Part shown: positions 5,092-35,338 of the stretch, piece by piece | How positions within the stretch are numbered: position 1 is the stretch's first letter | How the letters are laid out: each line of letters opens with the position of its first letter | IMG/VR virus record: IMGVR_UViG_3300036823_000095 | Span: 1 to 41,215 of that record | Length of the DNA: 41,215 nucleotides | DNA from: a virus | Reading direction: 5' to 3' (one strand) | Translations under genes and position numbers: made by a program | Notes under the pieces: model-generated | Databases searched by the model: none | Seen by the model: the letters and a program-made list of their open reading frames with translations, nothing else | What the model was told of the DNA's origin: nothing

Positions 5092-5119
5092 AGTGTAGCA
5101 CAACGCTAGCGAAACGGTT
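5092..5119 (-). promoter_or_regulatory. parA operon promoter with GCTAGC operator
   Basis: On the minus strand the -10 is TACACT (5097-5092). GCTAGC (5105-5110) lies in the spacer, and TAGC units at 5096 and 5107 are exactly 11 bases apart. The -35 (AACCGT) is poor, so the promoter may be weak or need an activator. It is divergent from the plus-strand promoter at 5145. Confidence 0.6.
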
Positions 5120-5144
5120 GCACTCTGAAACATCAAAATACTTG

Positions 5145-5172
5145 TTGCACTCTGCTAGCACTCTGCTACAAT
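5145..5172 (+). promoter_or_regulatory. Strong sigma70-like early promoter with GCTAGC operator
   Basis: TTGCAC (5145-5150), 16 bases, TACAAT (5167-5172). GCTAGC (5154-5159) sits in the spacer and GCTA recurs 11 bases on, overlapping the -10. A partial copy of the -35 segment (GTTGCACTCTG) occurs 27 bases upstream at 5117. Binding of any protein to the boxes would occlude RNA polymerase. Drives 5209-5642. Confidence 0.85.
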
Positions 5173-5208
5173 GTAGTTACTGAAACGCAACGCACAAAGG
5201 GGCAACAC

Positions 5209-5412
5209 ATGGAAAACATTCAACACCTGCCAGTCATTACCGAAGCCCGCGCGATTGACGCGATTTTCGACGCATGCCGCGCCAATGAAACCCGCGAGCC
5301 GAAGAAAGGCGTTACGTTCCGCCTGCTGGTCAATGGCATGCACGAAGCGGCATTGCGCGACGCTGACGGCGTAGTTATCGCAATTGCTCACGTTGACCGT
5401 TTCGACGTTTAA
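5209..5412 (+). CDS. Hypothetical small early protein, 67 aa
   Basis: ATG at 5209 follows AAGGGG with good spacing and is the first gene after the promoter at 5145. The protein has a charged N-terminal helix and a C-terminal beta-rich part (KGVTFRLLVNG, ALRDADGVVIAIAHVDRF) resembling a small alpha/beta fold. No family recognised. It is transcribed with 5424-5642, and the pair ends at a strong terminator at 5668. Small early proteins in this position are often host-takeover or anti-defence factors; no direct evidence for that here. Confidence 0.75.
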   Translation: MENIQHLPVITEARAIDAIFDACRANETREPKKGVTFRLLVNGMHEAALRDADGVVIAIAHVDRFDV

Positions 5413-5423
5413 AGGGGATAGCC

Positions 5424-5642
5424 ATGATTCATTTTCACGACGGTTCTTTCTATCGCAACCGCGCCTGCATGGCGTGGGGCGAAATGCAGCCGGTAGACGA
5501 CATTTTCGACCGTGCTAACGACCTGGCCGCAGGCTACTGCCTGGACGCCATAGAGGAACAGCCAGCGGGCGCAACGTGGCGCGTTGAGCCGGATTCGGGC
5601 GAGCCGTTCGCGGCCCCGCGCAGCGCCTACGGTCGCTATTGA
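5424..5642 (+). CDS. Hypothetical small early protein, 72 aa
   Basis: ATG at 5424 with AAGGGG upstream, 11 bases after the previous stop. Contains aromatic and acidic residues (IHFHDGSFYRNRACMAWGEM, DDIFDRANDLAAGYCLDAIEE) and a proline-rich tail. No motif recognised. Last gene before the terminator at 5668, so it is the second gene of a short two-gene transcript. Confidence 0.75.
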   Translation: MIHFHDGSFYRNRACMAWGEMQPVDDIFDRANDLAAGYCLDAIEEQPAGATWRVEPDSGEPFAAPRSAYGRY

Positions 5643-5667
5643 GCAGATTGCTACGGGGGTAGTTTTG

Positions 5668-5691
5668 GGCCGCATTCGTGCGGTCTTTTTT
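5668..5691 (+). terminator. Rho-independent terminator
   Basis: GGCCGCA, loop TTCG, TGCGGTC, then six T. The stable tetraloop hairpin with T-run lies 26 bases after the stop at 5642 and just before the next GCTAGC promoter, separating the two early units. Confidence 0.92.
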
Positions 5692-5703
5692 CGTTCTAAC
5701 CTG

Positions 5704-5731
5704 TTGCATTCTGCTAGCACTGTGCTACAAT
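5704..5731 (+). promoter_or_regulatory. Sigma70-like promoter with GCTAGC operator
   Basis: TTGCAT (5704-5709), 16 bases, TACAAT (5726-5731). GCTAGC at 5713-5718 and GCTA at 5724 are 11 apart, the same arrangement as at 5145. Drives the 5766-7477 genes. Confidence 0.85.
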
Positions 5732-5765
5732 GTAGTCATGGGTTGAACGAAACGGAGCAAACGAA

Positions 5766-5945
5766 ATGCAAGACGCAATCAAATTCATCAGCTACGCAAA
5801 CGGCACGATTCGCAATGCAGCGGGCAAGCTGGTCGCCTTTTATGACGCAGCAGAAAAAAGCCTGTCAATCGACGGCTTCGCGCTGACGTTCTATGCCGAC
5901 GACCTAGAACATGCAATGGAAATTGTCGGGCGTCGCGCATCATGA
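5766..5945 (+). CDS. Hypothetical small protein, 59 aa
   Basis: ATG at 5766 follows GGAG with 7-base spacing, directly behind the promoter at 5704. The stop TGA (5943-5945) overlaps the next ATG (5942), showing coupling. The sequence begins MQDAIKFISYANGTIRNAAG and contains a beta-hairpin-like AFYDAAEKSLSIDGFALTFY. No family recognised. Well supported by spacing, overlap and Shine-Dalgarno despite its size. Confidence 0.75.
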   Translation: MQDAIKFISYANGTIRNAAGKLVAFYDAAEKSLSIDGFALTFYADDLEHAMEIVGRRAS

Positions 5946-6151
5946 AAACACTAATTCAGGCGCAAACGGCGTACATCGAGCAGGTAAACCGCTGCGTGCG
6001 CCCCAAAGACCGCGCGAGCCGTGTACGCCGGTCGGCGAACGGCAAGCTGCACGCCTACCTTGAACGGCTGGGCATCACGGGCGAGCAGGCCCGCCAAATC
6101 TGCCGCGACGCTTGGGACATGGCAGAGCTTGAACATAACAGCGAGGATTGA
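5942..6151 (+). CDS. Hypothetical basic small protein, 69 aa
   Basis: Starts in the ATGA overlap with the previous gene. Arg-rich middle (RPKDRASRVRRSANGK) followed by helices (LHAYLERLGITGEQARQICRDAWDMAEL). It may bind nucleic acid because of charge, but no fold is recognised. Third element of the early unit. Confidence 0.7.
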   Translation: MKTLIQAQTAYIEQVNRCVRPKDRASRVRRSANGKLHAYLERLGITGEQARQICRDAWDMAELEHNSED

Positions 6152-6155
6152 GAGC

Positions 6156-8010: not shown

Positions 8011-8436
8011 CTAGGCTTCGACCAGCGGGTAATGCTGGGCCACGTCGCGCGTGATATCCACCCATGCGATATAGCGCGGCTGGATGCCCTCGCCTGCGCC
8101 CACGGTGCCATTGAGCAGCATGCCGTTTTGCGGGTCGCCCGCGCCTGCCACCTGGTCACTGTTCGGCGCTTCCCATGCCGGGCGCGCGGTCGTGATGTTG
8201 ATAGCGGCAATGGTGCCAGCGGGCACAACGCCCGAGGGTTCGGCGGGCTTCGTTTCGGTGTACGTCGTCGTGCCCGTGCCCGCACCGAAGCCCCCCGTTT
8301 CCTGGCGCACATAGCCCGCGAACGAACCGCCCTGCATGGCACGCGCGAGCGCTTCGGGGTCCATCGCGCCCACGGCTGGCGCTGCGTCCTGTGCTGCCGG
8401 TGCTGCGTCTGCCTTGACTGCCTTTTTCTTTGCCAT
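8011..8436 (-). CDS. Hypothetical protein, 141 aa
   Basis: ATG at 8436 chosen, with AGGTGG upstream, over a GTG at 8445. A Lys/Ala-rich N-terminus (MAKKKAVKADAAPAAQ) precedes a Gly/Thr-rich beta-like part (GGFGAGTGTTTYTETKPAEP, AGTIAAINITTARP). It follows the DUF2303 gene by 29 bases. No family recognised; an unstructured N-terminus and beta-rich body could suit a binding or decoration protein. Confidence 0.65.
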   Translation of the reverse strand: MAKKKAVKADAAPAAQDAAPAVGAMDPEALARAMQGGSFAGYVRQETGGFGAGTGTTTYTETKPAEPSGVVPAGTIAAINITTARPAWEAPNSDQVAGAGDPQNGMLLNGTVGAGEGIQPRYIAWVDITRDVAQHYPLVEA

Positions 8437-8465
8437 GATTGCCACCTTTCCTGTGTTGCAGCGTG

Positions 8466-9335
8466 CTAGCCCAATGCTGGCATATCGCCACTACGCTGCA
8501 CGCGTTGCGGGACGCCCATAAACAGCGGTAGGGCGGTCTTTTCGGTGATACGTTCGATAATGTCGGCGGCGGCCTGTTCAATCACCTTGTGGGCGCGCAC
8601 CAGATCAAAACCGATTTGCAGCGTGTGACTATGCGGGTCGATGCGGTAGCGCAGGCGCGCGCCGATTTTGTACGTCGGGCCGCCCATGAAAACCGGAATG
8701 CCGAGAAAGAACTGTTCGGGCATTTCGAGCGCGCCATTGCCGCCTGTCGCGTTGATGGTTTCGGCATAGCGCAGTTGGGTTGCGCCGTTCGTCAGGCGCG
8801 TGGCGCTGGAAAATTCCGCCTTGATGGTCGCATGCAGTACCTGCGCCAGTTCGAGCAGTACCGCGCCGGGCGGTTCCGTGGGCGAGCCGCTAAACACGTC
8901 GTCAACATTGCTTTCAACGAATTCCGCAAAGTCGCGTTGCGCCCCACGCTTGCCATTCATTGCCGTCCATATCTGCCATTCGGGCGTGACCATCGGGGCA
9001 TACACGCCGCGCCAGTCTGCCCATGAGGGCTGTTCGCCGCTGGTCGTGTCATCCAGCACGGCCACAAAGCGCACGCCCTGCGTGGGGTTGTTCGTTGCAT
9101 AGATGCGCGTGCGCTCGCCCTTGCGCTCATTGACCCATGCACAGAAGGATTCACAATCGCCGAGTTCGGTCTGGCCGCGTGCGCGCGCCGGGGCCGGTAG
9201 CAGGGCTTCGAGGTCGTGTAATGACCAGTCGGGCGGGACAACCGTATAGGGTGCGCCGAAGTCGCTCACGCGGCGGGCTTCGAGGCCTGCCACGGTGAAA
9301 GAGGCGAGTTCCTGGATAGCGCTGCGGTCAATCAT
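8466..9335 (-). CDS. DUF2303 (YfdQ-like) family protein
   Basis: 289 residues. Features of the family: an N-terminal region starting MIDRSAIQEL, a PPDWSLHDLEAL segment, a YVNERKG-like FCAWVNERKGERTRIYATN, then a conserved alpha/beta core with FAEFVESNVDDVF. Members occur in many phages and prophages beside recombination or replication genes; no biochemical role is firmly established. The ATG overlaps the stop of the 9332 gene (ATGA). On the plus strand its end carries a match to the GCTAGC promoter element at 8456-8483. Confidence 0.8.
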   Translation of the reverse strand: MIDRSAIQELASFTVAGLEARRVSDFGAPYTVVPPDWSLHDLEALLPAPARARGQTELGDCESFCAWVNERKGERTRIYATNNPTQGVRFVAVLDDTTSGEQPSWADWRGVYAPMVTPEWQIWTAMNGKRGAQRDFAEFVESNVDDVFSGSPTEPPGAVLLELAQVLHATIKAEFSSATRLTNGATQLRYAETINATGGNGALEMPEQFFLGIPVFMGGPTYKIGARLRYRIDPHSHTLQIGFDLVRAHKVIEQAAADIIERITEKTALPLFMGVPQRVQRSGDMPALG

Positions 9336-9688
9336 TGTGCGCCCCCGTTGGTGCCGGTCGCAACGTCGCGCGGCGGTTCGTGAGCGGTCGGTACTTCGCG
9401 CAGGTCGAGCGGGGTCTGGCGCGGATTGTTGCGGGTGAGGTCGCCCCCTGCGGTGACAAAGAACAGGCTGCTGCCGCGTTCGTTACGCGGTTCCTTCATG
9501 CCGATTTTGTCGCACACTTCGACGGCTTCGCCGCTGTTCTTTAGCGGCTTGACCGATAGCGTGTAAGTGATTTCGCCACCGCGCCCGGTTTCAAGACATG
9601 CGCGCACCAGTGCGGCCAGTGATTCGCTCAGTTCGTCGTGAGACTGCCCACCGCGCATATCGCGCAGCACGTCCGCAAACAATCGCAT
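9332..9688 (-). CDS. Hypothetical protein coupled to DUF2303, 118 aa
   Basis: ATG at 9688 after a full GGAGG. Helical N-terminus (FADVLRDMRGGQSHDELSESLAALVRACLETGR), then a beta strand rich part (GEITYTLSVKPLKNSGEAVEVCDKI) and a disordered tail. Genes of this kind often precede DUF2303 in phages, so they probably act together; no function known. Expressed from the promoter at 9772-9800. Confidence 0.75.
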   Translation of the reverse strand: MRLFADVLRDMRGGQSHDELSESLAALVRACLETGRGGEITYTLSVKPLKNSGEAVEVCDKIGMKEPRNERGSSLFFVTAGGDLTRNNPRQTPLDLREVPTAHEPPRDVATGTNGGAQ

Positions 9689-9800: not shown

Positions 9801-9836
9801 TATCGTGCGTTGTGCTGCGCATTGCGCACTGTTGCG

Positions 9837-10091
9837 CTATGCTAGCACACTGCTGACGTTTTGTGCGTCCTGCTGCTGCCACTCGCCGCATAGGTCAATG
9901 TCATACGTCGCAGGCCATTTCGCCAGGTTCGGCATGTCGTCGTCTGAGTCTTTGCACTTGCCGGGGCGCGGCGCATGGCGGGTGCATAACCCTACGCTGC
10001 TTGCAACCTGAAAATACGCGGGCAGGTCGTCGCGCTCAAACCAATGCCGACAGGTCGCGCAGCATTGCTGCGCCGGTAATTCGTCCGTCAT
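9837..10091 (-). CDS. Small cysteine-rich, probable zinc-binding protein
   Basis: 84 residues, ATG at 10091. Cysteines: CCATCRHW near the N-terminus, GLCTRHAP in the middle, GKC, and DLCGEW near the C-terminus. The order CxxCxxW ... GxCxxHxP ... C ... CGEW/F is typical of a family of small phage proteins that probably fold round one zinc. Function unknown. Last gene of the replication operon (12803 to 9837). Its end overlaps a plus-strand match to the GCTAGC promoter element. Confidence 0.75.
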   Translation of the reverse strand: MTDELPAQQCCATCRHWFERDDLPAYFQVASSVGLCTRHAPRPGKCKDSDDDMPNLAKWPATYDIDLCGEWQQQDAQNVSSVLA

Positions 10092-12895: not shown

Positions 12896-12924
12896 TTGCA
12901 CACATGGCGCGACCTGTCTACAAT
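12896..12924 (+). promoter_or_regulatory. Strong sigma70 promoter of an ncRNA
   Basis: TTGCAC (12896-12901), 17 bases, TACAAT (12919-12924): a near-consensus promoter with ideal spacing and no GCTAGC box. No coding start follows closely; a terminator follows within ~60 bases of the expected start. Confidence 0.85.
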
Positions 12925-12930
12925 CGGCCC

Positions 12931-13018
12931 TGAAGTGACAAACGCCCCTTGCCGGGCCATGTCGCGGAGTAGTCTCTTTTAAAGCCCCGATACTTTCCAC
13001 GGTTCCGGGGCTTTTCCT
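12931..13018 (+). ncRNA. Candidate small regulatory RNA (~90 nt)
   Basis: Starts about seven bases after the -10 at 12919-12924 and ends at an intrinsic terminator, giving ~85-90 nt with no open frame or ribosome site. A 5' hairpin is possible from GGCCC near the start pairing with GGGCC ~25 bases on, followed by a single-stranded A/T-rich stretch (AGTCTCTTTTAAAG). It lies between the divergent replication and recombination units, a usual position for immunity or copy-number RNAs. Target unknown. No known RNA family recognised. Confidence 0.6.
12982..13018 (+). terminator. Rho-independent terminator of the ncRNA
   Basis: AAGCCCCG (12982-12989), a 16-base loop, CGGGGCTT (13006-13013), followed by TTCCTTTT. 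An 8-bp GC-rich stem and a T-rich tail. Confidence 0.85.
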
Positions 13019-13216
13019 TTTGTGCAGCGCAAACGTTTAAAACGCTCACAACCCGCACTGGCGCTCATTTTTCACCTGGTTAGCCTGGTTTTGCAATACT
13101 TTCATCGCGGAAAGTATGAGAATAATTTACTTGCAAAATCCGCCAGAATCGGCATTCAATCGGCATCTATTCAACCCGCATAATCATTATTCCGGGTGAA
13201 TTACGCCCTGCTGCTG
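13019..13216. other. Non-coding control region with inverted and direct repeats
   Basis: About 200 bases without a gene. It contains ATACTTTC/GAAAGTAT (13096-13117, 8-bp arms, 6-base gap), a direct repeat of ATCGGCAT (about 13148-13167), a compound palindrome with outer arms ACCCG/CGGGT and inner ATAATCATTAT (13174-13197), and AT-richer stretches than the rest of the genome. The segment ATACTTTC also occurs in the ncRNA terminator loop (about 12990). It may be an operator or part of a secondary origin. Confidence 0.6.
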
Positions 13217-13244
13217 TTGCACTGTGCTAGCAGTGTGCTATACT
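13217..13244 (+). promoter_or_regulatory. Sigma70-like promoter with GCTAGC operator
   Basis: TTGCAC (13217-13222), 16 bases, TATACT (13239-13244). GCTAGC at 13226 and GCTA at 13237, 11 apart. Drives the 13282-14006 genes. Confidence 0.85.
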
Positions 13245-13281: not shown

Positions 13282-13623
13282 ATGCACCATATCAATTCGT
13301 TTTTCCGCTCCGACCTTGACCGCTATTACGCCCAGGCCGATGCCGCCGACAGCCGCGCCGACGCGGTAGACGTGCGTATGAACGCGATTGCAGCCGCGCC
13401 CAATATGGAACAGTTCGCAGACGCATTCTGCGCCATCGGCACGGGCAAGGGCGACATGCAAAAACTGTTGACGGCGTATACCCTGGGGCGCGATGCTTTC
13501 ATGTCTGAGGTCTTCGAGCAGTTAAACGCGGGCTTCGCCGACGTTGCAGACCTTGAAATTGAAGAACAGGATACGCAGGCGCTCGAATGCAACGCGCGTG
13601 AGGTTCTTTCCGATTGGGATTAA
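13282..13623 (+). CDS. Hypothetical early protein, 113 aa
   Basis: ATG at 13282, with AAGGGA upstream and 38 bases after the promoter -10. Acidic and helical along its length (HINSFFRSDLDRYYAQADAADSRADAV, MEQFADAFCAIG, MSEVFEQLNAGFADVADLEIEEQD). Its stop TAA shares a base with the next ATG. Acidic helical proteins of this size can be DNA mimics or regulators; no family recognised. Confidence 0.75.
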   Translation: MHHINSFFRSDLDRYYAQADAADSRADAVDVRMNAIAAAPNMEQFADAFCAIGTGKGDMQKLLTAYTLGRDAFMSEVFEQLNAGFADVADLEIEEQDTQALECNAREVLSDWD

Positions 13624-14006: not shown

Positions 14007-14008
14007 TG

Positions 14009-14061
14009 CTAGCGTTCCACTGAGAAAGTGCTAGCACTTCGCTAGCGCTTCGGCTATACTG
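14009..14061 (+). promoter_or_regulatory. Promoter with multiple phased GCTAGC boxes
   Basis: GCTAGC at 14009, 14031 and 14042 with intervals of 22 and 11, plus GCTA at 14054 (12 on). -35 TAGCAC (14033-14038), 17 bases, -10 TATACT (14056-14061). The -35 itself overlaps a box. Drives the exonuclease at 14094. The weaker -35 suggests a regulated promoter. Confidence 0.8.
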
Positions 14062-14093: not shown

Positions 14094-15011
14094 ATGTCTA
14101 ACGCCCTTACCATCATCACGCCCGACGCATACAACCGCACAAAGTTTGTGGGCGGTTCCGATATCGCCTCAATTATGGGCATCAACCCGTACCGCAGCGG
14201 CCTGGATTGCTGGCTGGACAAGGTAAGCCCCGACACACGCCCCGACAGCGACAACCCCGCCACGCGTCGCGGCAAGCGCATGGAACCGGTGATTCTCGAA
14301 TGGGCGCGCGAAGACTTCGGGTTAGAGGTCGAGCATAGAAACCGTCGTTTTGTGGATTCCGCGGTGCCGTTTTTCGCGGCTGAAATTGACGCGGAAACGA
14401 CCGTTGACGGCGAGCCGGTCAATGTTGAGGTAAAGACCGTGCATCCCTTCCTTGGCAAAGAGTGGGGCGAGCAGGAAAGCGACGGCATGCCGCTGCACTA
14501 TCTGGCCCAAACCATGTGGGGCCTGTCGGTCACGGGCCGCAATCTGTGCGTGGTGTATGCCGGTGTCGGCGACGAACTGCGCCGCTACTTTGTCGAGCGC
14601 GACGACGCGCTAATTGATTTGATGCGCCATGAGGCCGATTCGTTCTGGCGCGGCTACGTCGAAACGCGCCTGCGCCCGGATATCGACCCGAGCCATGCAC
14701 GCGTATTCGAAACCCTCAAACGCCTGTATCCGGGCACGAACGGCGAGGCCGTCAATGCGTCCACTACGCACGAATCCTGGTACGCCACCATGGTTGACGC
14801 TGCCGAAAAGGCGGCCATGTATGAGGGCGTGGCAAAGGGTGCAAAGGCGCATCTGGTGTCGGAAATGGGCGAGGCCGCGCAACTGGTCTTTGCAGACGGG
14901 CAGGCATTGAAGCGCGCCAAGCGCAAGCGCGCAGGCTACACGGTGGACGCAACCGAGTATTGGGATATCCGCGTCGCCAAGTTCAAAGAGGAAAGCGCAA
15001 AGGCAAAATGA
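14094..15011 (+). CDS. YqaJ-type phage exonuclease
   Basis: 305 residues, ATG at 14094 after GGAG. A GGSDIASIMGINPY motif (20-33) and RRGKRMEP (58-65) begin the YqaJ/lambda-exo nuclease fold. Catalytic acidic residues fit D99 (FAAEIDA) and the EVK motif (E112, K114), with E64 from RMEP. The C-terminal third is helical. Such enzymes resect one DNA strand to give the 3' overhang used by an annealing partner, the RecT encoded next at 15083. Family assignment is confident from order of motifs and length. Confidence 0.88.
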   Translation: MSNALTIITPDAYNRTKFVGGSDIASIMGINPYRSGLDCWLDKVSPDTRPDSDNPATRRGKRMEPVILEWAREDFGLEVEHRNRRFVDSAVPFFAAEIDAETTVDGEPVNVEVKTVHPFLGKEWGEQESDGMPLHYLAQTMWGLSVTGRNLCVVYAGVGDELRRYFVERDDALIDLMRHEADSFWRGYVETRLRPDIDPSHARVFETLKRLYPGTNGEAVNASTTHESWYATMVDAAEKAAMYEGVAKGAKAHLVSEMGEAAQLVFADGQALKRAKRKRAGYTVDATEYWDIRVAKFKEESAKAK

Positions 15012-15025
15012 GGGCGTGCGCTATG

Positions 15026-15053
15026 CAGCATTCTGCTAGCAGTGTGCTAATAT
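15026..15053 (+). promoter_or_regulatory. Promoter with GCTAGC operator before recT
   Basis: CAGCAT (15026-15031), 16 bases, TAATAT (15048-15053). GCTAGC (15035), GCTA (15046) and GCTG (15057) are at 11-base steps. Same arrangement as other early promoters but a weaker -35. Confidence 0.75.
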
Positions 15054-15082
15054 AGCGCTGTCAACTTACACGCGAGGAAACA

Positions 15083-16231
15083 ATGTCACGCACCGAAGAA
15101 CTGAAACAGAAAATGCAGGCCCGCAACGGCGTAACAGGGCAGGGGGGGGCGAACGGCAACGGCGAGGCGCTGGCCCCGCTCACGCAGTCACAACAGGCTG
15201 ACGCGCTGGCTAAATTCCTGTCGTCGCCTGCGGTCATGGCGCAAATCATGAAAGCCCTGCCGCGTCATCTGACAGCGGACAGGCTGATTCGTATTGCGAC
15301 AACCGAGCTACGCAAAAACCCCAAGCTGGCACTCTGCACGCCCCAATCATTCCTTGGTGCAGTCATCCAGTGCGCGCAACTTGGGCTAGAGCCGGGCAGT
15401 GCGCTGGGCCATGTCTACCTGGTGCCGTTCAAACGCAATTTCAAGCGCGGCAACGAATGGTTCAGCGAAATGATTACGACCGTGATAGTGGGCTATCGCG
15501 GCATGATTGACCTTGCCCGCCGCAGCGGTCAGATTGAGTCTATCGAGGCGTGGCCGGTGTACCTGGGCGACAGGTTCGAATGTCTGCTGGGGCTGGAACC
15601 GTCGCTGGTGCATGCGCCGGATTGGGAGAACCCGAACCGCACGAACCCCGACATGCTGCGCTTCGTGTACGCGGTCGCCCGCCTTAAAGACGGTGGCCGC
15701 CAGTTCGCGGTTATGTCGCGCGCCGAAGTCGAAATGATTCGCAACCGGACTTTCGACAAAAACAAGACGAGCGCCGACGACCGCGCGAAAAGCCCATGGG
15801 CGACGGACTTCGAGCAAATGGCATTGAAGACGGTTATTCGTCGTCTGTTCAAGCATCTGCCAGTGTCTATCGAAATGGTTATCGCCGACGCGCTGCGCCG
15901 CCCGGATAGCGACGAACTGCAACTGGCCGAAACTGCCGCGCTCATGCTTGAGGATAACGCCAGCCCCACGCTTGATATCCCGATGCACGAAGTACCTGAA
16001 ATGGTTGTGCCGGGCGAGCAGGGCACGGGAGAGGGCGAGCCGGAAAGCCTGCAAACGGACTTTGACGGCCCAGGGCAGACGCTGGGCGAGCGTATCGAGG
16101 CCGCGCTACTCAATGCAAAATCGCGTGACGTGCTGGACGTGGCCGCCGACGAGATACGCGAACTGGCCGCGCCTGCCGAGCGCGCGAAACTTGAGGCCCT
16201 GTACAGGGAGCGCCGCGAAGTGCTGCAATAA
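15083..16231 (+). CDS. recT: RecT single-strand annealing protein
   Basis: 382 residues, ATG at 15083 (GAGG upstream). Starts MSRTEELKQKMQARNG. The RecT core includes KNPKLALCTPQSFLGAVIQCAQLGLEPG and SALGHVYLVPFKR, followed by VIVGYRGMIDLARRSG and later FEQMALKTVIRRLFKHLP, all hallmarks of RecT/RedB-type annealers. The C-terminal ~90 residues are variable and acidic. It forms rings on single-stranded DNA and anneals the ends made by YqaJ. The 3' end overlaps the 11-bp GCT array at 16222. Confidence 0.95.
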   Translation: MSRTEELKQKMQARNGVTGQGGANGNGEALAPLTQSQQADALAKFLSSPAVMAQIMKALPRHLTADRLIRIATTELRKNPKLALCTPQSFLGAVIQCAQLGLEPGSALGHVYLVPFKRNFKRGNEWFSEMITTVIVGYRGMIDLARRSGQIESIEAWPVYLGDRFECLLGLEPSLVHAPDWENPNRTNPDMLRFVYAVARLKDGGRQFAVMSRAEVEMIRNRTFDKNKTSADDRAKSPWATDFEQMALKTVIRRLFKHLPVSIEMVIADALRRPDSDELQLAETAALMLEDNASPTLDIPMHEVPEMVVPGEQGTGEGEPESLQTDFDGPGQTLGERIEAALLNAKSRDVLDVAADEIRELAAPAERAKLEALYRERREVLQ

Positions 16232-16284
16232 TGCTATATTTGTGCTGCCGGGCCGCTAGTGTTCTGCTAGCGGCCTGCTGTCAT
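16222..16284 (+). promoter_or_regulatory. Six-unit 11-bp-phased GCT-R array and promoter
   Basis: GCTG 16222, GCTA 16233, GCTG 16244, GCTA 16255, GCTA 16266 (within GCTAGC) and GCTG 16277 are exactly 11 bases apart, five consecutive intervals. Five of the six are preceded by T. A promoter fits -35 TAGTGT (16257-16262), 16 bases, -10 TGTCAT (16279-16284). The first unit lies in the last codons of recT. This is the longest array in the genome. Confidence 0.8.
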
Positions 16285-16298: not shown

Positions 16299-16895
16299 AT
16301 GGATAAGAGAAACCTGTGTGAAGTCGCCCGCGAGCTTTTCGAGCATGAGGAAAACCGCGAGGGCGACTATATGGCGTTCGTCATGGGGGCGGCTTTCATG
16401 CACGAACGGCTAACCTGGCTGATTAGCGAAGCCACCACGCGCGACGATAATATGCTGGACCCGTCCTTTCTGGACTGGATAGAGAAAGACCTGAAATATG
16501 CACAACGCACGGGAGCCGCCTGGGAATCAGAGCCGCAACCCGTCTATCATCCCGAGCCGCCGCCGCTGCCGGTGCGTGCCCGCAATGTACTGAGTGACCG
16601 GCGCGCAGACCAGGCCTATGCGATTTTTGGCGAGGGCTGGAACCCCGACAGGTTCGCGCATTTCTGGCATATGTTCGAACGCGACATACTGCCCGATGGT
16701 CTGGACAGTGAGGGGCGTTCAAAGATGCGCGCAACTTTCCTTGCGGGAATTTCTACCGCCTTTTATGATATAGCCCGTATCTACGTTAAAGCCGCGAATG
16801 CAAAGAACCCCGAAGCATTCAGGATTTACCTTAGAGATTTCAGGCGTTCATTAGAGCGGACAATGCAGCCCGCCGACGCCCGGAACATGCACTAA
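16299..16895 (+). CDS. Hypothetical protein, 198 aa
   Basis: ATG at 16299 preceded by GGGGA (short spacing of 3-4), chosen over ATG 16284 because it follows the promoter -10 with room for a leader. Helical N-terminus (MDKRNLCEVARELFEHEEN), central helix with aromatics (YMAFVMGAAFMHERLTWLI), then a proline-rich linker (EPQPVYHPEPPPLPV) and a helical C-terminal half ending RRSLERTMQ. No family recognised; a member of the recT operon. Confidence 0.7.
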   Translation: MDKRNLCEVARELFEHEENREGDYMAFVMGAAFMHERLTWLISEATTRDDNMLDPSFLDWIEKDLKYAQRTGAAWESEPQPVYHPEPPPLPVRARNVLSDRRADQAYAIFGEGWNPDRFAHFWHMFERDILPDGLDSEGRSKMRATFLAGISTAFYDIARIYVKAANAKNPEAFRIYLRDFRRSLERTMQPADARNMH

Positions 16896-17767: not shown

Positions 17768-17877
17768 GCGCCGAGGAAATAGAGCGCGACAAGCGCCGCA
17801 TGCGCCTGACTGTCATTGTCCTTTACACAATCGGACTACCGTTAATCTTTGTCCTTCTATGGTTTGCACTTAGCTAG
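17731..17877 (+). CDS. Small single-TM protein, 48 aa
   Basis: ATG at 17731, stop TAG (17875-17877) inside GCTAGC. Polar basic N-terminus (MQRKPFAPIVLLSAEEIERDKRRMR) then one transmembrane segment (LTVIVLYTIGLPLIFVLLWFALS), likely N-in. It overlaps the upstream gene's end in another frame. The weak Shine-Dalgarno (GGA) lowers confidence. Function unknown; small membrane proteins of phages may act in lysis timing or exclusion. Confidence 0.5.
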   Translation: MQRKPFAPIVLLSAEEIERDKRRMRLTVIVLYTIGLPLIFVLLWFALS

Positions 17878-17893
17878 CACTATGCCGCACTTT
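17864..17893 (+). promoter_or_regulatory. Weak promoter with GCTAGC box before the HTH gene
   Basis: TTGCAC (17864-17869) with GCTAGC at 17873-17878 in the same relation as the other promoters, but the -10 position is poor (CACTTT at 17888-17893 with an 18-base spacer is best). The next gene starts at 17933. It could be a self-regulating operator. Confidence 0.4.
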
Positions 17894-17932: not shown

Positions 17933-19042
17933 ATGCTTGATACTTTCACGCCCGAACAGAAAGCCTCAATTCTCGCCCAAATCATGAAAGAGGAAAGCAG
18001 CGGGGCGAGCCTGCGAGAATGCTGCCGCGCACAGGGCATTACGCTGCAAACGTTCCTTGACTGGAAAGCAAGCGCGAGGCGTCATAACCAGTTCGATACC
18101 CTGCATTTAAATGGCATTCACCCCGAGCGCAAACCCTCACGGTTCCGGCATGAAAAGCCAAAGACAGCACTACAGATAGCACTCGAAACCGCCCAGCGCC
18201 GCAGTTATCCCGAAGACAACCCCGAAGACGTGGCCGCCGTGCGAGCCATGGAAAGAGGCGAGCCAGTACCGACAGCAACGCCGCCAGACATGCCGCCAGA
18301 AACGCCCCCAGCGGCCCCGCCGCCTGCGGTTGACGTGCCAATAGCCGCAGCGCCGCCCGAGGCCGCCAGCGAGCCGGAAAACCCGCCCCCGCCGCAGATT
18401 GAACCCTCATACCCGATATATGACGCAGTACGCGGCATGCTTGAGCAGCAACCCGAACCGGATAAAGAGCCGGTCAATTCAATTATCAAAGACGAGGTTA
18501 TAACCGTGCCAAAATCTGAAAACGTCATCAAACCGCGTGGCATAGCTGCCACCATGCACAACGCTATGCCGTGGCTCGCCGCTGTCGAGCGGAAAACAGA
18601 AAAGGCAATGGGGCCTAAGCCCGCGAGCAAAGCGCCGGGCTATTACGCCTGGATTGCGCATCGAAAGGAATTAATGACGCCCGAGCAGAAAGCGGAAATT
18701 GAAACTTATTTTGGTGTCAACCGGCGCGGCGCTCGCGCGACGAAACCCGATGCGCCGACAGCCAGGCGCGCACCGAAGCCCGCACAGGTAGAGGAACAGC
18801 GCGAAATGGTGGCCGCCCGCGTGACCAATGGGCCGCGCAAGGTGCCCGCCTCGCCGCGTGTCAATGAACTGGTCAACCAGCATGCAGAGCTATCCGCACA
18901 GATTGCAGACCATCAGCAATTGGGGCTGGTGCGCGCACATGCGCCGCGTGAGCATGGGGGGCTGGTGACAGAGAATGAACGACTCAAACGCGCACTCACG
19001 GCGCTGACTATGGAAAACCTGCAACTGCGCGGGCTGCTTTAA
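17933..19042 (+). CDS. HTH / proline-rich / coiled-coil protein, candidate regulator
   Basis: 369 residues from ATG 17933 (GAGAGG upstream; an earlier Met at 17849 is rejected as lacking a ribosome site). N-terminal transposase-like helix-turn-helix: FTPEQKASILAQIMKEE, then SLRECCRAQGITLQTFLDWKA. A Pro/Ala-rich linker lies at about 120-165. A conserved-looking central block (KPRGIAATMHNAMPWLAAVERK, GYYAWIAHRKELMTPEQKAEIE) is followed by a basic stretch and a C-terminal leucine-zipper coiled coil (LVNQHAELSAQIADHQQ, ENERLKRALTALTMENLQLRGLL). The design of DNA-binding head, flexible linker and dimerising tail fits a transcription regulator. It is preceded by a GCTAGC box, so it is an alternative reader of the boxes. 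Confidence 0.6.
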   Translation: MLDTFTPEQKASILAQIMKEESSGASLRECCRAQGITLQTFLDWKASARRHNQFDTLHLNGIHPERKPSRFRHEKPKTALQIALETAQRRSYPEDNPEDVAAVRAMERGEPVPTATPPDMPPETPPAAPPPAVDVPIAAAPPEAASEPENPPPPQIEPSYPIYDAVRGMLEQQPEPDKEPVNSIIKDEVITVPKSENVIKPRGIAATMHNAMPWLAAVERKTEKAMGPKPASKAPGYYAWIAHRKELMTPEQKAEIETYFGVNRRGARATKPDAPTARRAPKPAQVEEQREMVAARVTNGPRKVPASPRVNELVNQHAELSAQIADHQQLGLVRAHAPREHGGLVTENERLKRALTALTMENLQLRGLL

Positions 19043-22771: not shown

Positions 22772-23587
22772 TCACGATTTCATCAGGTAGTGCAGCCCCA
22801 CAAACGCGGGCCGGTTATCGAACGCGGCGTTGCCCCCTGCGGCCTGAATGGATACGCCTGTGCCGCTGCCGTAAATGCCTATGCCGGTGGCCGCGCCATA
22901 AATGCCTATGCCGGTGCCGCTGGGGCTTACTGGCCCCTGTCCGCGCCCGGTGCCGTAGGTGTTCTGTACCGCGCAGCCTACGCCGCCGTTATCGGCCCCC
23001 GCCTGCACGCTGCCGAGGTTCGGCTGGGCGTGCGCGTGGCCGGGGTCTGCCACGCCGTGCGCGTGCGAGGGGTCATACACGCTATGGGCGTGGCCGGGGT
23101 CATTGATACCGTGCGCGTGGCTGGGCATTTGCGCGGCGCTGATAACGGGAAAGCTGCTACCGCCCAGCACGCCGTTTGCGGTCTGGTCGCCCGCGCCAAT
23201 CGCAAACTTGTTGCGCATGTCGGGCGTGCCGTTGGTGCCGTCGCAGACGAGCCATGCGGCCGGTTTTTTCGTCACGTCGCCAAACCACAGAATGATTGAG
23301 CCGCGCGGAAAATTGTTGTTAAAAAGGTTGTCCGCATAGGCCTTGTTTACGAGGTCGCCGGTATCGACGGGCGCACCTGAATTCTTGAAAACAAAGCCCC
23401 CCATGTCGAGGTCCGCAGTCGCGGCAACGGAACCATCGGCGGCTATCCAGCCGTCGTGCAACTGCTTGCAGAATGCGAACGCCTGGCGAATGTAATCATC
23501 GGCCTGCGTGCCGAGCGGTTCGGACCCCTGGGGCGAGTTCTGTACGGGATTGGGGTAAATGTCATCCCATGAAACGGGTACGGGCAT
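22772..23587 (-). CDS. Tail collar-domain fibre protein with HAH metal-binding repeats
   Basis: 271 residues, ATG 23587 (GAGG upstream). N-terminal region binds the tail (PVSWDDIYPNPVQNSPQGS), then a shaft, then a collar domain (about 110-140): PRGSIILWFGDVTKKPAAWLVCDGTNGTPDMRNKFAIGAGD, typical of T4 gp12/lambda-like collars. Next, four 9-residue repeats of the form PxHAHxxxD, which in related proteins chelate metal in the fibre axis, and three TGIGIYG-type hexad repeats. C-terminus FVGLHYLMKS closes the fold, as in other collar proteins. Forms part of a receptor-binding fibre. Confidence 0.85.
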   Translation of the reverse strand: MPVPVSWDDIYPNPVQNSPQGSEPLGTQADDYIRQAFAFCKQLHDGWIAADGSVAATADLDMGGFVFKNSGAPVDTGDLVNKAYADNLFNNNFPRGSIILWFGDVTKKPAAWLVCDGTNGTPDMRNKFAIGAGDQTANGVLGGSSFPVISAAQMPSHAHGINDPGHAHSVYDPSHAHGVADPGHAHAQPNLGSVQAGADNGGVGCAVQNTYGTGRGQGPVSPSGTGIGIYGAATGIGIYGSGTGVSIQAAGGNAAFDNRPAFVGLHYLMKS

Positions 23588-23603
23588 GGCTTCGCCTCAC
23601 TGT

Positions 23604-23650
23604 GCTATTATGCTAGCGTTGTGATAACTGTGTGCTAGCGTGGTGCTAGC
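23604..23650. promoter_or_regulatory. Phased GCTAGC cluster between collar gene and opposite ORF
   Basis: GCTA at 23604, GCTAGC at 23612, 23634 and 23645; the last three plus GATA at 23623 fall on an 11-base lattice. A minus-strand promoter fits TAGCAC (23648-23643), 16 bases, TATCAC (23626-23621), ahead of the collar and fibre genes. A tiny plus-strand ORF starts at 23676. So the boxes may control receptor-binding genes independently of the rest of the late unit. Confidence 0.7.
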
Positions 23651-23819: not shown

Positions 23820-26594
23820 GTTCGGGCCGCCCAGCGCTGCCGGTGTCATCTGCTGGAATCCGCCCGCCAGTGCCTGATTGGCAAAACTGCGGTCTGCCAC
23901 TGCGCCCGCTGCCTTTCCGACCCATGGAATTTTCGACAGCAGCCCGTTATCCGCTGCGGCTGCTGCGAGGCTGGTAAAGGTATTGGCGTAATTGACGGGC
24001 GAGGCGCTGGGCTTCGTGCGCATGTACGACCCCACGCGCCCAATCGTCTTTAGCTGTTCTACTTCGTCGGGGTTGAAAAACGCGGCCAGTTTCTGCGGCC
24101 CGAACGTGTCTAGCTGCTTGGCATAGTTGCCGGGCCGGAATTCCTCGCCCGCACCATAGGCCGCGTCCTGCAACTTCTGCACGACCTGCGCGCGGACCTG
24201 GTTGAACTGGTCGGGCGAGTGCTGGCGCAGCAGGTCTGCCATTCCGCGTACTTCGTCGGTGTTGCCGCCGATAACGTACTTCTGGATAAACTTGTCCGCG
24301 CTGGTCGCATCGGTGGCCGCGTCTTTCAGTGCCGGTATCGCGTCGTGTAGCTGGAAACGCTGCGCGGCGGCCTGCTTGGCGGGCGCAAATACGCCGCCCC
24401 TGTCGTCGGCACTCTGCACGGCATCATTAACGGCCTTGCGCAGTTCGCCCAGCGCCGTATTGGCCGTCTTGTCATTGCCCACGTTTTTATTAATGACCTG
24501 GGTTAGCTGGTTCGCGTCTTCCATGTCAAAAATCTTTCGCTGGGTGCCGTCCATCAGCCCGAGTTTTTCAAACTGGTTGCGCACGCCCGAGGGTACGGCG
24601 TCGCCGAATTCATCCAGCACACGCGCGTAATCCTGCGCGAGTCCTTTTGTCGGTACGTCGAGCTTTGCGCCCGAGCTTTCACGCGCGGCGGTGTAGGCGT
24701 CCGTGACCTGCTGGCGCATCTGGTCATCAATGTTTTTCAGCGCGGTCTTTGCCCCGCTGCCTGCCTGGTATGTGTCGGCGGCGGTCGTCGGTGAAAGGTC
24801 ATCGAGCGCGTTCGCTAGTTGCCTGTCCTGCTGGTTAAAGCGGTTGGCGAGCTTCGTCTGTGCGCCGCGCAGGTTCTGTTCCTTGGCGTACTGGCCGGGG
24901 TCGCGCGATAGCTGGCCGGTCGTCGGTTCCATGCCGAGCGCGCGAAAATCCTGCGCCCGCTGTAGCTGCGTGCTGTCCACGCTGGGATTGTCGAGCGCTG
25001 ACTGTGTGAGGCGTGCGGCATCGTCCGCGCCCATGTTGTCGGCGGTCAATGCCCGGCGCGCGGTCGGCGGCAAATCGGGCGTGCCGGTCGTCGCGCGCTG
25101 CACGGCGCTTTCTAGCTGCTGCTGCTGGTAGTCGGGGTTCGCCGCGAGTCGCGCGGCCTGCTGCGCGTCCTGGCGGTTGGTAATCATGCGGTTTAGCCCG
25201 CCCGCCGTACCTGCGCCTGCAATCGAGCCAAGCAGGCCCGCGCCTAGCTGCGCGCCGGTTCCCCAGCCTGCCTCACGCGCCCCGCTGCTGCCTGCTGCGC
25301 CTCCTGCGGCGCTCGCTATCTGCGTGCCGGGCTGGGCGGCCAGAAAGTCGCCCACGGTGCCAATGGCCGGAGCGCTGCGCTGCGCGAGCCGCCCGAGCAG
25401 ACCGGGCGCGGCCTGATTCGCGGCGGTGGCATATTCCGGTACAGCGGCCAGCGCCTGCAACCCCTTGCCCGCCGCGTTGCCGGTGGCCGCGCCTACTATG
25501 GCGCTGCCCACGTCCTGTACAACGCGCTCGCTGGCGTTTTCAGGCTTCGCCACGCCCGCCCTGTCCTGCAAATCCTGCACTGACGACGACACAGCCTGTA
25601 GGCGCGGAATGTCGGTTCCTGCCACCTTGTTGATACCGCCCGTGACGGCATTTACGCCGCTGTTCAGCAGGTCGCCGACAGCCGCAGGCAGTGAGCTAAC
25701 GCCGGTAATGCCCATGCGCGCGGTGAGGCCTGCCTGGTGCGCGAGGTCGCCGAGGAACCCGCGTTGCTCTGGTGCTGCGGCGGGCGTCGCGGCTGCTGGT
25801 GCCGCTGCTTTCTTCGGCTGGGGCGCTGGCATCGTCGCGGGTGCGGCGGGGCCGCCTGCGTCCATCTGCGCGGCTGGCGTGGCGCTGGCGCTGCTGTCGC
25901 CTGGGTCAACCGTGTATTTTTTCTGTAGCGCGGCCCACGGGTCGCCATCGTCGGCGGCGGCCTGCGCGTCGGGCTGCGCATACTTCTTTTCGAGCGCGGC
26001 CCACGGGTCATTTGCGCCGCCGCCCGCGTTGCCCTGCTGTTGCTTTGCGCTAGCGCTTTGCTGCTGCTTTGCAACGGGGGGCGGGGTCGGGCCACTGGCG
26101 GCGCTCGCATAGGCGCGCTGGGCCGGTGTGAGTTCGCCCGCCTGCGCGCTGGTCGAGCCGGTGAGTGCGCCCAGCACGTTAGAGGCATAGCGCTGCAACG
26201 TGTCGGATACGCCGCCGATTTTCTTTACATAGTCCGGGTCTTCGGCATAGCCGCCTTTTTGCAACGCCTGGCCGAACGCCTGCGGCGTGCGCGTGCCTTC
26301 CACGCCCGGATAGCGACGGTTGAGCAAATCGCCGTAGCCTGCCGCACCAGCGGCGGGGCTGTCGTATGCCTGATAGCTGTCGGTCGTGCCGAGCATGTTA
26401 TCGCGCGCACTGACGCCCTGCCCCTTGATGTTGCCCAGGTTGTTAGAGCCGGGAATGATGCTCTTTCCGTAGCCGGTTTCCAGCGCCCATTGCGACAGGA
26501 TATTTTGCGGCGTGGTGTTCAGCCGCTGGGCCTGCTGCGCCGCGAGCGGCCCGTATTGCTGGACGAATGCGCGGATTTCTTCGGGGGTTGCCAT
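23757..26594 (-). CDS. Large internal virion/ejection protein with N-terminal glucosaminidase domain
   Basis: 945 residues from ATG 26594 (AAGGGG; overlaps previous stop TAATG). Residues ~1-150 form a FlgJ-like glucosaminidase/muramidase domain: TTPQNILSQWALETGYGKS with the catalytic E in LETGYG, then NNLGNIKG and SYQAYDSPAAGAAGY. The rest is long, Ala/Gln-rich, helical, with repeated DPWAAL-KKY boxes near 200-235 and C-terminal hydrophobic segments. Such proteins sit in the head, are ejected, cut peptidoglycan and form a channel for DNA entry in podoviruses. Its 3' end overlaps the plus-strand peptide gene. Confidence 0.85.
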   Translation of the reverse strand: MATPEEIRAFVQQYGPLAAQQAQRLNTTPQNILSQWALETGYGKSIIPGSNNLGNIKGQGVSARDNMLGTTDSYQAYDSPAAGAAGYGDLLNRRYPGVEGTRTPQAFGQALQKGGYAEDPDYVKKIGGVSDTLQRYASNVLGALTGSTSAQAGELTPAQRAYASAASGPTPPPVAKQQQSASAKQQQGNAGGGANDPWAALEKKYAQPDAQAAADDGDPWAALQKKYTVDPGDSSASATPAAQMDAGGPAAPATMPAPQPKKAAAPAAATPAAAPEQRGFLGDLAHQAGLTARMGITGVSSLPAAVGDLLNSGVNAVTGGINKVAGTDIPRLQAVSSSVQDLQDRAGVAKPENASERVVQDVGSAIVGAATGNAAGKGLQALAAVPEYATAANQAAPGLLGRLAQRSAPAIGTVGDFLAAQPGTQIASAAGGAAGSSGAREAGWGTGAQLGAGLLGSIAGAGTAGGLNRMITNRQDAQQAARLAANPDYQQQQLESAVQRATTGTPDLPPTARRALTADNMGADDAARLTQSALDNPSVDSTQLQRAQDFRALGMEPTTGQLSRDPGQYAKEQNLRGAQTKLANRFNQQDRQLANALDDLSPTTAADTYQAGSGAKTALKNIDDQMRQQVTDAYTAARESSGAKLDVPTKGLAQDYARVLDEFGDAVPSGVRNQFEKLGLMDGTQRKIFDMEDANQLTQVINKNVGNDKTANTALGELRKAVNDAVQSADDRGGVFAPAKQAAAQRFQLHDAIPALKDAATDATSADKFIQKYVIGGNTDEVRGMADLLRQHSPDQFNQVRAQVVQKLQDAAYGAGEEFRPGNYAKQLDTFGPQKLAAFFNPDEVEQLKTIGRVGSYMRTKPSASPVNYANTFTSLAAAAADNGLLSKIPWVGKAAGAVADRSFANQALAGGFQQMTPAALGGPNSAPGLLGLLGAGAANRATNR

Positions 26595-33597: not shown

Positions 33598-33609
33598 GTT
33601 CCTTGACTC

Positions 33610-34734
33610 CTAAAAGAGCCGCGCAAGGTTGTCCAGATTGGGGTTTTTCTCCCACTGCGACACGGCGCGTTTGCGCTGGTCTGCCTTCTGGTTCTGTGCG
33701 GGCTGACGGTTGCCGGGGCGTTCCGAAACGGGCGGCAAATCGCGCACGCGTTTTTGCGCGGTGCCTGCCTTCGATTTCAGTTCGTCGTACTTGCGGGCCT
33801 TGTCGGCGTTGATAGCAGCGGCGTGCAGCACGCGCACAATGCGCGCGTCGCCGATTTCGCTGATTTCCTGCGCGTTAAATCCTGCATCCGACAGCAGGGT
33901 ATTAATGCGCGCGATGCCGCGTGAGGCCTTTTCCGGGTCGCGCCATGCGGGGATAGCTTCGAGAACGCTATCCTTCTGGATTTCGAGAAACTGCCCTTTC
34001 TGTGCTTCGTGCAACTGCGCCTGTTGGTTAGCGAGGTAGGCTTGTGCCGCCTCTGCATCACGCAAGTGCTGTTGACGTTGCTCCATCAGGTGTTTTTGTC
34101 GAACCCATGCGGCGGGGTCGGTCTGTGCGAGTTCGTCCAGATTGGGTGTCTCGCTTTGCATCAACGCACGAATGTGCGTCTGCACGTTCTGCAACATCGT
34201 GTTCAACTGCTGGCGCTGCTGGTTGACTGCATGAATCAGGTTATCGGCCTGTTTCTGCGTGGTGGCCGCCTTTTCCCAGCGGTCATGCGCAGACAGGCCC
34301 TTGCTTGCCGCTTCGAGCATTTCGGCACGCGTGAGCGTGCGCTTTTCGCCGTTGACTTTCAGCGTGTATTTTTCCGCGCCGTCGTCGTCGTCGTGTTCCT
34401 CGCCGTCGTCGTCGTCGCCGCCGTCGTCGTCGCCTGCTGCGTGCTGGGTGTCGTCGCCGTCGTCGCCATCGTCGCCGGTGTCGCCGTCGTCGTCGTCGCC
34501 TTTGGGTTCCGGCTTGCCCTTCTTTTTGCCGGGTTTAGCTTCCTCGTCGTCGCCGTCGTCGTCGTGTTCGTCGTCGCCCGTGTCATCACTGGCGGCCTGA
34601 AAACGTCCATTGTCTGCCCGCGCTGCCTTGCGGCTTTCCTTGGTCGTCGCTTTCTTTTCCACGTCGCCGAACGCGTCGCCGAGTTCGCCCAGGGATTGCG
34701 CGCCCGCTTGCGGGTTAGCTGCGTCCTGTCCCAT
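33610..34734 (-). CDS. Scaffolding protein
   Basis: 374 residues, ATG 34734 (GGAG, spacing 8). An acidic low-complexity region (about 40-115, runs of D, E, G, encoded by GAC/GAT triplets) is followed by a helical part (TRAEMLEAASKGLSAHDRW, KQADNLIHAVNQQRQQLNTML, AQAYLANQQAQLHEAQKGQ) and a basic C-terminus (KNPNLDNLARLF) of the kind that contacts capsid. Lies directly before the major capsid gene, the usual site for scaffolds. Preceded by a terminator/attenuator at 34747-34781. Confidence 0.8.
   Translation of the reverse strand: MGQDAANPQAGAQSLGELGDAFGDVEKKATTKESRKAARADNGRFQAASDDTGDDEHDDDGDDEEAKPGKKKGKPEPKGDDDDGDTGDDGDDGDDTQHAAGDDDGGDDDDGEEHDDDDGAEKYTLKVNGEKRTLTRAEMLEAASKGLSAHDRWEKAATTQKQADNLIHAVNQQRQQLNTMLQNVQTHIRALMQSETPNLDELAQTDPAAWVRQKHLMEQRQQHLRDAEAAQAYLANQQAQLHEAQKGQFLEIQKDSVLEAIPAWRDPEKASRGIARINTLLSDAGFNAQEISEIGDARIVRVLHAAAINADKARKYDELKSKAGTAQKRVRDLPPVSERPGNRQPAQNQKADQRKRAVSQWEKNPNLDNLARLF
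34380..34573. repeat. GTC/GAC trinucleotide low-complexity tract
   Basis: The plus strand shows many GTCGTC and CGTCGC units, encoding Asp/Gly/Glu runs of the scaffold on the minus strand. It is a low-complexity coding repeat liable to slippage length changes; no separate function is indicated. Confidence 0.8.
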
Positions 34735-34746
34735 TTTTCACGCTCC

Positions 34747-34781
34747 AAAAAAATGCCCGAATCCTGTAACGGGTATCGGGC
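34747..34781 (-). terminator. Terminator/attenuator before the scaffold gene
   Basis: Minus strand GCCCGA, 15-base loop, TCGGGC, A, seven T. It starts immediately after the stop of the 34782 gene and 13 bases before the scaffold ATG, so a promoter or antitermination is required for scaffold and capsid expression. Confidence 0.85.
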
Positions 34782-35297
34782 TTAGTCAGGTTGAATTACT
34801 TCCATGGCCTGCGAAAAATTGCCGGGCCAGTCATCGGGCCGGGGTTTGCCTGGCCGCCATGTTCTGAGGGCGTACATATCCCAGCCGCCTTGCGGGTCGT
34901 CGGTGTCCGGTAGCGGGTACGGGTCGGTGTACATCAGCAGGCGCGCACACGCTGCGGCTAGTACGTCGTCCTGGTCGAGCCGGTTGTAAATCGCCACGGG
35001 GTCAAACGCGACATGACGACGGCGGCAAACGTGCTGCAATGGGGCGGCGCTCGCGCTCGCCTCATAGATGCCCCATACGCCGCCGTGGCTCGCCTGGGTG
35101 CCCTGTTCAAACTGCCAGTACCCGCGCGCCGGGCCGCCGCCGTACTGGTCGCGTGTAACGAACCCGCTTTCCTGCAAGCCGATAGCGAGCAGCAGCACGC
35201 GGGCCGCGTCAGAGGTCATTTCAGCGGGCAACAGGCGCAGCGCCGGGCGGATTGCGCGGCGCAGGATGCGTTGCAGGTTCGGGCCGGTCGTCGTCAC
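34782..35297 (-). CDS. Lytic-transglycosylase-like protein
   Basis: 171 residues, GTG start at 35297 with GGAG nine bases upstream. Motifs: LLAIGLQESGF (catalytic Glu in the LQES motif) and GPARGYWQFEQGTQASHGGVWG, resembling the ExxS and GxxQ-type motifs of SLT/lysozyme folds. It may be a virion-associated peptidoglycan enzyme or the endolysin; no signal peptide. Positioned between portal accessory genes and scaffold and preceded by its own GCTAGC promoter. Confidence 0.6.
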   Translation of the reverse strand: MTTTGPNLQRILRRAIRPALRLLPAEMTSDAARVLLLAIGLQESGFVTRDQYGGGPARGYWQFEQGTQASHGGVWGIYEASASAAPLQHVCRRRHVAFDPVAIYNRLDQDDVLAAACARLLMYTDPYPLPDTDDPQGGWDMYALRTWRPGKPRPDDWPGNFSQAMEVIQPD

Positions 35298-35301
35298 TGT
35301 G

Positions 35302-35338
35302 TAGCACTCCTATAGCATTGTGCTAGTCATTCGCTAGC
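35302..35338 (-). promoter_or_regulatory. Phased GCTA/TAGC array and promoter before the transglycosylase gene
   Basis: TAGC at 35302, 35313, TAGT 35324 and TAGC 35335 (the last within GCTAGC 35333-35338) at 11-base steps. A minus-strand promoter fits TAGCGA (35336-35331), 16 bases, TATAGG (35314-35309). It lies in the 44-base gap between the small ORF at 35342 and the 35297 start, in the middle of the late block. Confidence 0.7.

Follow-up and report, generated by a model that had tools for sequence, protein, structure and literature searches.

The current analysis concerns a recurrent promoter element, the GCTAGC box, in the virus record IMGVR_UViG_3300036823_000095 (41,215 nucleotides, hereafter referred to as the window, i.e. 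the whole stretch of DNA that was analyzed). We consider it reasonably probable that these boxes are operators of a ribbon-helix-helix (RHH) centromere-binding protein, which is encoded at 4166-4408 within a type Ib ParA-RHH partition cassette and would have been recruited as a phage-wide repressor. The operator present at the partition promoter recurs at about ten window promoters of unrelated genes, and it is conserved in the two nearest relatives of the window, with which it forms a podovirus lineage. Presumably, each RHH dimer would occupy a 13-bp palindrome (TAGCANWNTGCTA), with neighboring dimers placed at an 11-bp pitch, equal to one helical turn. Two or more of them would thereby line up along the same face of the DNA, covering the region from -35 to -10 and keeping RNA polymerase away. 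Ordinary type Ib autoregulation would result at the par promoter, and since the RHH protein is encoded in a par cassette, the same sites probably serve as a centromere as well. At the other promoters, which precede early, recombination and fibre genes as well as one further gene of the virion region, the bound protein would similarly exclude RNA polymerase; it is the position of the operators that suggests a shut-off function.

Distribution and phasing of the GCTAGC boxes

The window encodes RecE/RecT, a phrog_1216 portal, terminase, scaffold, a major head protein and tail fibres. Its nearest relatives are two IMG/VR contigs, G001 (3300036772_000181, 41,038 bp) and G002 (3300036831_000043, 39,693 bp), with portal identities of 80-84%, followed by a sister lineage (L182, L183, L124 and fragments) at ~72% and by the more distant G003 and G004 at ~49%. 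No DNA-level relative of the first 24 kb of the window was found among 50,697 phage records.

Among the 24 copies of GCTAGC in the window, 16 are located outside of genes, within only 4.0 kb of intergenic DNA, compared to an expectation of 1.7 and a maximum of 6 in 300 dinucleotide shuffles. This corresponds to 3.95 copies per kb of intergenic DNA vs. 0.21 per kb of coding DNA, a ~19-fold difference, and a similar bias is evident in G001 (2.45 vs. 0.19) and G002 (5.22 vs. 0.28). The longer word TGCTAGCA occurs 5 times between genes in the window (0.12 expected) and is the top over-represented 8-mer in both G001 and G002, while a search for TTGCANTNTGCTAGCANTNTGCTA allowing up to 3 mismatches located 16 places in G001 and 6 in G002, and none with the reversed control pattern. 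The phasing of GCTA repeats described in the initial annotation is likewise upheld, as pairs exactly 11 bp apart number 9 in the window (0.33 expected), 11 in G001 and 5 in G002, against ~0.35 expected in each. G003 and G004 encode no intergenic GCTAGC and exhibit neither the enrichment nor the 11-bp phasing.

The boxes are also strongly associated with promoters. A strong -35/-10 frame surrounds 11 of the 47 intergenic boxes of the three phages, vs. 0.8% of random intergenic positions, a ~30-fold excess, and 0 of 25 coding boxes. Furthermore, the boxes are located 30-60 bp before the start codons of specific orthologous genes; gene starts are approximate, because genes were called with our own simple codon-usage script.

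Shape of the proposed operator

Alignment of the boxes yielded a 24-bp operator, TAGCANWNTGCTAGCANWNTGCTA, beyond which conservation drops. The initial annotation had taken the 6-bp palindrome GCTAGC as the repeated unit. The repetition at 11 bp stands, while the unit itself is more probably the 13-bp palindrome TAGCANWNTGCTA, two copies of which would meet in a central CTAG with GCTAGC as their seam. We infer this dyad assignment, since the aligned boxes were themselves selected on GCTAGC. Three observations favor the 13-bp unit over the 8-bp unit TGCTAGCA: the outer TA marks the limit of the array, it also marks the limit of the corresponding site of Burkholderia phage KS14, and isolated 13-bp palindromes are found in the sister lineage. 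At promoters, the upstream half-site TTGCA also provides the -35 element and the downstream TGCTA an extended -10. The promoter elements are thus themselves half-sites, merged with the operator.

Proposed operators at individual promoters

The sites of the window are as follows.

5096-5119, minus strand promoter: operator at the parA promoter (box 5105, -10 TACACT)
5145-5168, plus: operator-promoter TTGCACTCTGCTAGCACTCTGCTA(CAAT), before the gene 5209-5412
5704-5727, plus: operator-promoter, before the gene 5766-5945
8456-8479, minus: operator (box 8465) between the DUF2303 gene and 8011-8436, box kept in G001 and G002
9832-9855: operator (box 9841) upstream of the DUF2303 operon (9332-9688, 8466-9335)
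12896-12924, plus: box-free sigma70-like promoter TTGCAC-17-TACAAT, a contrast case
13217-13240, plus: operator-promoter, before the gene 13282-13623
14008-14060, plus: three boxes (14008, 14030, 14041) and the promoter TAGCAC-17-TATACT at 14032, before RecE
14094-16231, plus: RecE-like exonuclease and RecT-like annealing protein (phrog_434, phrog_148), proposed to be under box control
15026-15049, plus: operator-promoter CAGCAT...TAATAT, before RecT
16257-16280, plus: operator with weak hexamers TAGTGT...TGTCAT, before the gene 16299-16895
17864-17887, plus: operator (box 17873), before the helix-turn-helix (HTH)/small-terminase-like gene 17933-19042
23603-23650, minus: three boxes with poor promoter hexamers, before the tail-fibre gene 22772-23587
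35302-35347, minus: phased half-sites and a box with poor hexamers, before the gene 34782-35297

All of the promoter coordinates proposed initially were located in the sequence. The common arrangement attributed to them, a box in the spacer between -35 and -10, is clear at 5145, 5704, 13217 and 14032, while the hexamers are weak at 16257 and poor at both minus-strand clusters. At 5145, 5704 and 13217, a TTGCAC/T -35 is followed by TGCTAGCA within a 16-bp spacer and by TACAAT/TATACT. The arrangement was also found at orthologous promoters of G001 and G002 and is absent from G003/G004. Boxes precede the orthologues of parA, 5209, 8011, 13282, recE and 17933 in all three phages, and at parA the box position is nearly constant (-46, -44 and -42 relative to the gene in the window, G001 and G002, respectively). 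In two of the three phages, boxes are found before recT (absent in G002), 16299 (window and G002, with near copies in G001), the fibre gene 22772 and 34782 (window and G002). The portal, terminase, scaffold and capsid gene starts of the window carry no boxes.

The enrichment, phasing and conservation of the boxes lend good support to the proposal that one protein acts at many promoters, and the reach of this control appears wider than stated. The original list of promoters was incomplete, as the boxes at 8465, 17873 and 9841 had been missed, and control would therefore be less selective than claimed. One of the two promoters described as exempt, at 12896, is indeed box-free, although its region is not conserved at the DNA level in G001/G002. 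For the other, the promoter of the DUF2303 operon, the spacer contains no box, whereas all three phages have one upstream of the operon. In the window and in G002 (24731-24754), this upstream box is found at nearly equal distance, ~45 bp, before a clear -35, a distance more usual for activation or looping than for direct occlusion. At this operon, the box-binding protein could act differently, from the upstream site, or not at all.

The probable par cassette

Both proteins of the putative partition cassette are encoded on the minus strand.

4405-5064, minus: ParA, 219 aa, deviant Walker A motif KGGTGKTT from residue 10, no N-terminal HTH (type Ib size)
4166-4408, minus: 80-aa putative RHH protein, the proposed box binder, the next gene after parA and overlapping its stop

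ParA matches phrog_164 (ParA-like, E 4e-38) and Pfam AAA_31/MipZ and is 73-75% identical to its G001 and G002 orthologues. Its deviant Walker A motif and lack of an N-terminal HTH are those of the small ParA of type Ib ParA-RHH cassettes. A repeat array is present as well: lag 11 is the top periodicity upstream of parA, and a box is found at the parA -10 in all three phages. In the predicted structure of the 80-aa protein, two C-terminal helices follow an extended stretch, and this C-terminal region is RHH-like; Pfam detected no ParB domain (CTP-binding, HTH). The putative strand, RER[VL]M[VI]N, is invariant in the three phages, and the tail of the protein, rich in Lys/Arg, includes a conserved ETA-ILRAGR-like motif. 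Among the viral IMG/VR contigs scanned, the ParA and RHH pair was found only in the window, G001 and G002, and the RHH protein returned no sequence match from phage and plasmid collections and only chance matches from a PDB sequence search. For related ParAs, the syntenic partners in KS14, PARCL1pr and Dfl-JY14 (L178-L180) pass the Pfam RHH_1 cut-off, and those of plasmids are annotated as RHH or CopG.

Similar sites at related par cassettes, and a different palindrome in the sister lineage

The RHH protein is most likely the binder of the boxes, in preference to the HTH protein, a judgment that is based upon KS14, plasmids and the sister lineage. The prophage of KS14 is a plasmid (PMC3091744), and of the proteins of this phage only ParA convincingly matches one of the window; it is 44% identical, has an RHH partner and is preceded by the 11-bp-phased sequence TAGCA-AGT-TGATATCA-ACA-TGCTA. 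When a site matrix trained on the three podophages was run on KS14 and other genomes, the second best KS14 site (TAGCAAGTTGATATCAACATGCTA at 30378) was located directly before parA and the third directly before the RHH gene. In FLC10 and FLC5, of the same genus as KS14, the matches ranked 3-4 and 2-3, respectively, adjoin the parA and RHH genes. The weight of this evidence lies in the positions of the sites, because their scores are near the shuffle maxima.

The phasing can also be assessed independently of the matrix. A lag-11 self-match score of at least 10 was obtained for 7 of 15 regions (200 bp) upstream of related parA genes, vs. 9 of 2400 random 200-bp windows; the 15 regions are not all independent, because KS14/FLC5/FLC10 and window/G001/G002 are related sets. 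The seven belong to an Advenella plasmid, KS14, FLC5, FLC10, the window, G001 and L183. The upstream region of L182 parA has a periodicity of 21 bp, and several plasmid or phage members do not exhibit either of these clearly.

In the sister lineage, the RHH proteins of L182 and L183 are only 22-29% identical to those of the window lineage, and their genomes carry a different palindrome, TAG[TC]GNNNC[AG]CTA, at a 21-22-bp pitch. Two of their locations, the parA promoter and the gap that separates the DUF2303 gene from the 8011 orthologue, carry GCTAGC boxes in the window lineage; the palindromes also precede a small number of further genes in L182/L183. As equal places carry a different word in phages with a different RHH protein, the protein and its operators appear to have changed together, and the sister lineage can be regarded as a natural specificity-swap experiment.

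Several results weigh against the RHH protein as a phage-wide repressor. The top-scoring KS14 site is located elsewhere, KS14 scores are barely above those of shuffles, and this phage has a separate annotated repressor; dispersed use of the operator is therefore not general. The 11-bp phasing is absent at the related par cassettes of Komagataeibacter, pMNBL076 and Agrobacterium. The Pfam CopG_antitoxin match of the 80-aa protein is weak and below the cut-off, its AlphaFold model is of modest confidence (predicted local distance difference test 69.5), and while MazE6, CopG/DNA, Arc and AmrZ rank high among the PDB matches of the model, none does so at E<=0.001. L183 retains the strand residues RxMxN and yet carries the other palindrome, which rules out that these residues alone set the operator; other residues must therefore contribute to specificity. 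Finally, no lysogen, integrase, host or plasmid form was found, and a search of genome contigs for a prophage or host returned nothing.

Alternative explanations

The boxes might instead be read by another DNA-binding protein of the phage, with the par promoter as just one of its targets. This could be the HTH/small-terminase-like product of 17933-19042 or an unrecognized small early protein. The former has an N-terminal HTH_Tnp_1 match, and orthologues of it are encoded by G001 and G002, which bear boxes, but not by G003/G004, which lack them; many small window genes are without a domain. However, a terminase small subunit family (phrog_1482, E 8e-4) is the better match for the 17933-19042 product, and a repressor of this kind would leave unexplained the 11-bp-phased palindromes at the parA genes of KS14, in which no other window protein was found, and of the Advenella plasmid. 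We regard this explanation as unlikely.

It is less probable still that a host regulator or sigma factor reads the spacer box and that the phage promoters have adapted to it. The -35/-10 elements are indeed host sigma70-like and the box is located within their spacer, but the related G003/G004, whatever their host, lack intergenic GCTAGC, the arrays reach beyond promoters, and the palindrome differs between sister phages at equal positions. The least plausible of the alternatives, that the boxes act solely in replication or partition, as iterons or dispersed centromeres, and are found at promoters incidentally, draws upon the par nature of the cassette, the phased iterons typical of centromeres and origins and the occurrence of identical 11-bp TGCTAGC iterons within a replication-like gene of unrelated phages, and it would hardly account for the ~30-fold excess of -35/-10 frames or the 30-60 bp spacing to orthologous start codons.

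Relation to known systems

The RHH protein as a phage-wide repressor would have parallels among several characterized systems, each of which differs from the window in key respects. The omega protein of pSM19035 is an RHH ParB that serves as both centromere binder and repressor, and its repeats overlap three promoters, copS, delta and omega (PMC9499535). As in the omega/Delta system, the window encodes a putative RHH partner together with a small ParA and has tandem short repeats at several promoters. Unlike the 7-bp non-palindromic heptads of omega, which form clusters of 7-10 at three plasmid promoters, the window sites are palindromes with an 11-bp pitch at about ten phage promoters. In the ParR/parC system of plasmid R1, an RHH protein binds 11-bp iterons around its own promoter; this is a type II (ParM actin) cassette and its sites are not dispersed to other genes. 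KorB of RK2 is a partition protein as well as a genome-wide repressor (PMC11790492, PMC5577506), and the logic proposed here for the window is similar. KorB, however, belongs to the HTH ParB class, forms a CTPase clamp and cooperates with KorA, whereas the window has a small putative RHH protein and no KorA was found. The KS14 cassette has a related ParA, an RHH partner and 11-bp phasing before parA, but it differs in that dispersed operators were not seen, and KS14 encodes a serine recombinase along with an annotated repressor of its own (gp5). Lastly, cluster A mycobacteriophages, some of which have parABS, employ one repressor and many dispersed stoperators, the sequence of which varies with the repressor between relatives (PMC6550527). 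The window likewise has many related sites across the genome, and between sister lineages these appear to change with the proposed binder. Stoperators are asymmetric, mostly outside of promoters, oriented with transcription and read by a dedicated repressor, whereas the window sites are palindromic and promoter-enriched and do not qualify as such. A limited literature search, largely of non-subscription journals, found no description of a partition protein of the RHH type that acts as a phage-wide repressor.

The kinship of ParA to those of KS14 and plasmids suggests a plasmid-like prophage, and the partition protein may possibly be the repressor that maintains it. Neither an integrase nor a classical CI/Cro-type repressor was recognized among the window proteins using Pfam and PHROGs, several small genes matching nothing. 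When queried against plasmids, the portal yielded only distant fragments, and RecT found no relatives among viral contigs. It is conceivable, though we regard it as somewhat doubtful, that the RHH protein is the sole immunity repressor of this podovirus lineage, one that both segregates a plasmid-like prophage and silences lytic promoters, in which case joint change of operator and protein would create heteroimmune, compatible phage-plasmids in one step. If the RHH protein is indeed a phage-wide repressor, one 80-residue protein and one operator would carry partition as well as lysogenic repression, and the plasmid trait of incompatibility would be identical to the phage trait of superinfection immunity. 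It would also exemplify the dispersal of a centromere through a genome in the form of promoter operators, the half-sites of which supply the -35 and -10 elements.

Additional observations

The word GCTAGC alone is not diagnostic. A scan with the exact pattern gave 118 contigs, mostly unrelated, several of which carry the word inside a replication-like gene. In G003, GAGTACTC was considered as a counterpart operator and rejected, its copies being scattered and without promoter context. In unrelated phages, 11-bp-phased TGCTAGC/TTGCAAGC/GATAGC repeats are located within a coding region (L116:840-1030, L097:1930-2160, L086:1740-1935, L005:3860-4060 and L081:3600-3890), the product of which starts K..NW..FQHYK.R.PPWIKL and is replication-initiator-like; these repeats probably form the iteron array of an origin that lies within coding sequence. 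Distant portal relatives (46-49%) have 11-bp-phased TGCTAGC/TGCAAGC arrays (L132:3880-3960 and L155:4150-4200), and no related ParA was found in the pieces of these two contigs that were examined.

The strong box-free promoter at 12896 is followed by a short stretch that ends in a terminator-like hairpin (GCCCCGATACTTTCCACGGTTCCGGGGCTTTT), the whole spanning 12896-13060, and there is no match to an Rfam family. The window as a whole has zero Rfam matches and zero tRNAs. To the left of the par operon, the product of 461-1504 carries Big_1 and invasin-type Ig domains (Pfam E 3e-25) and is also found in G001, G002 and L182/L183. A CxxCxxCC zinc/iron-chelating domain protein (3047-3679, Pfam E 1e-8) is kept downstream of the RHH gene.

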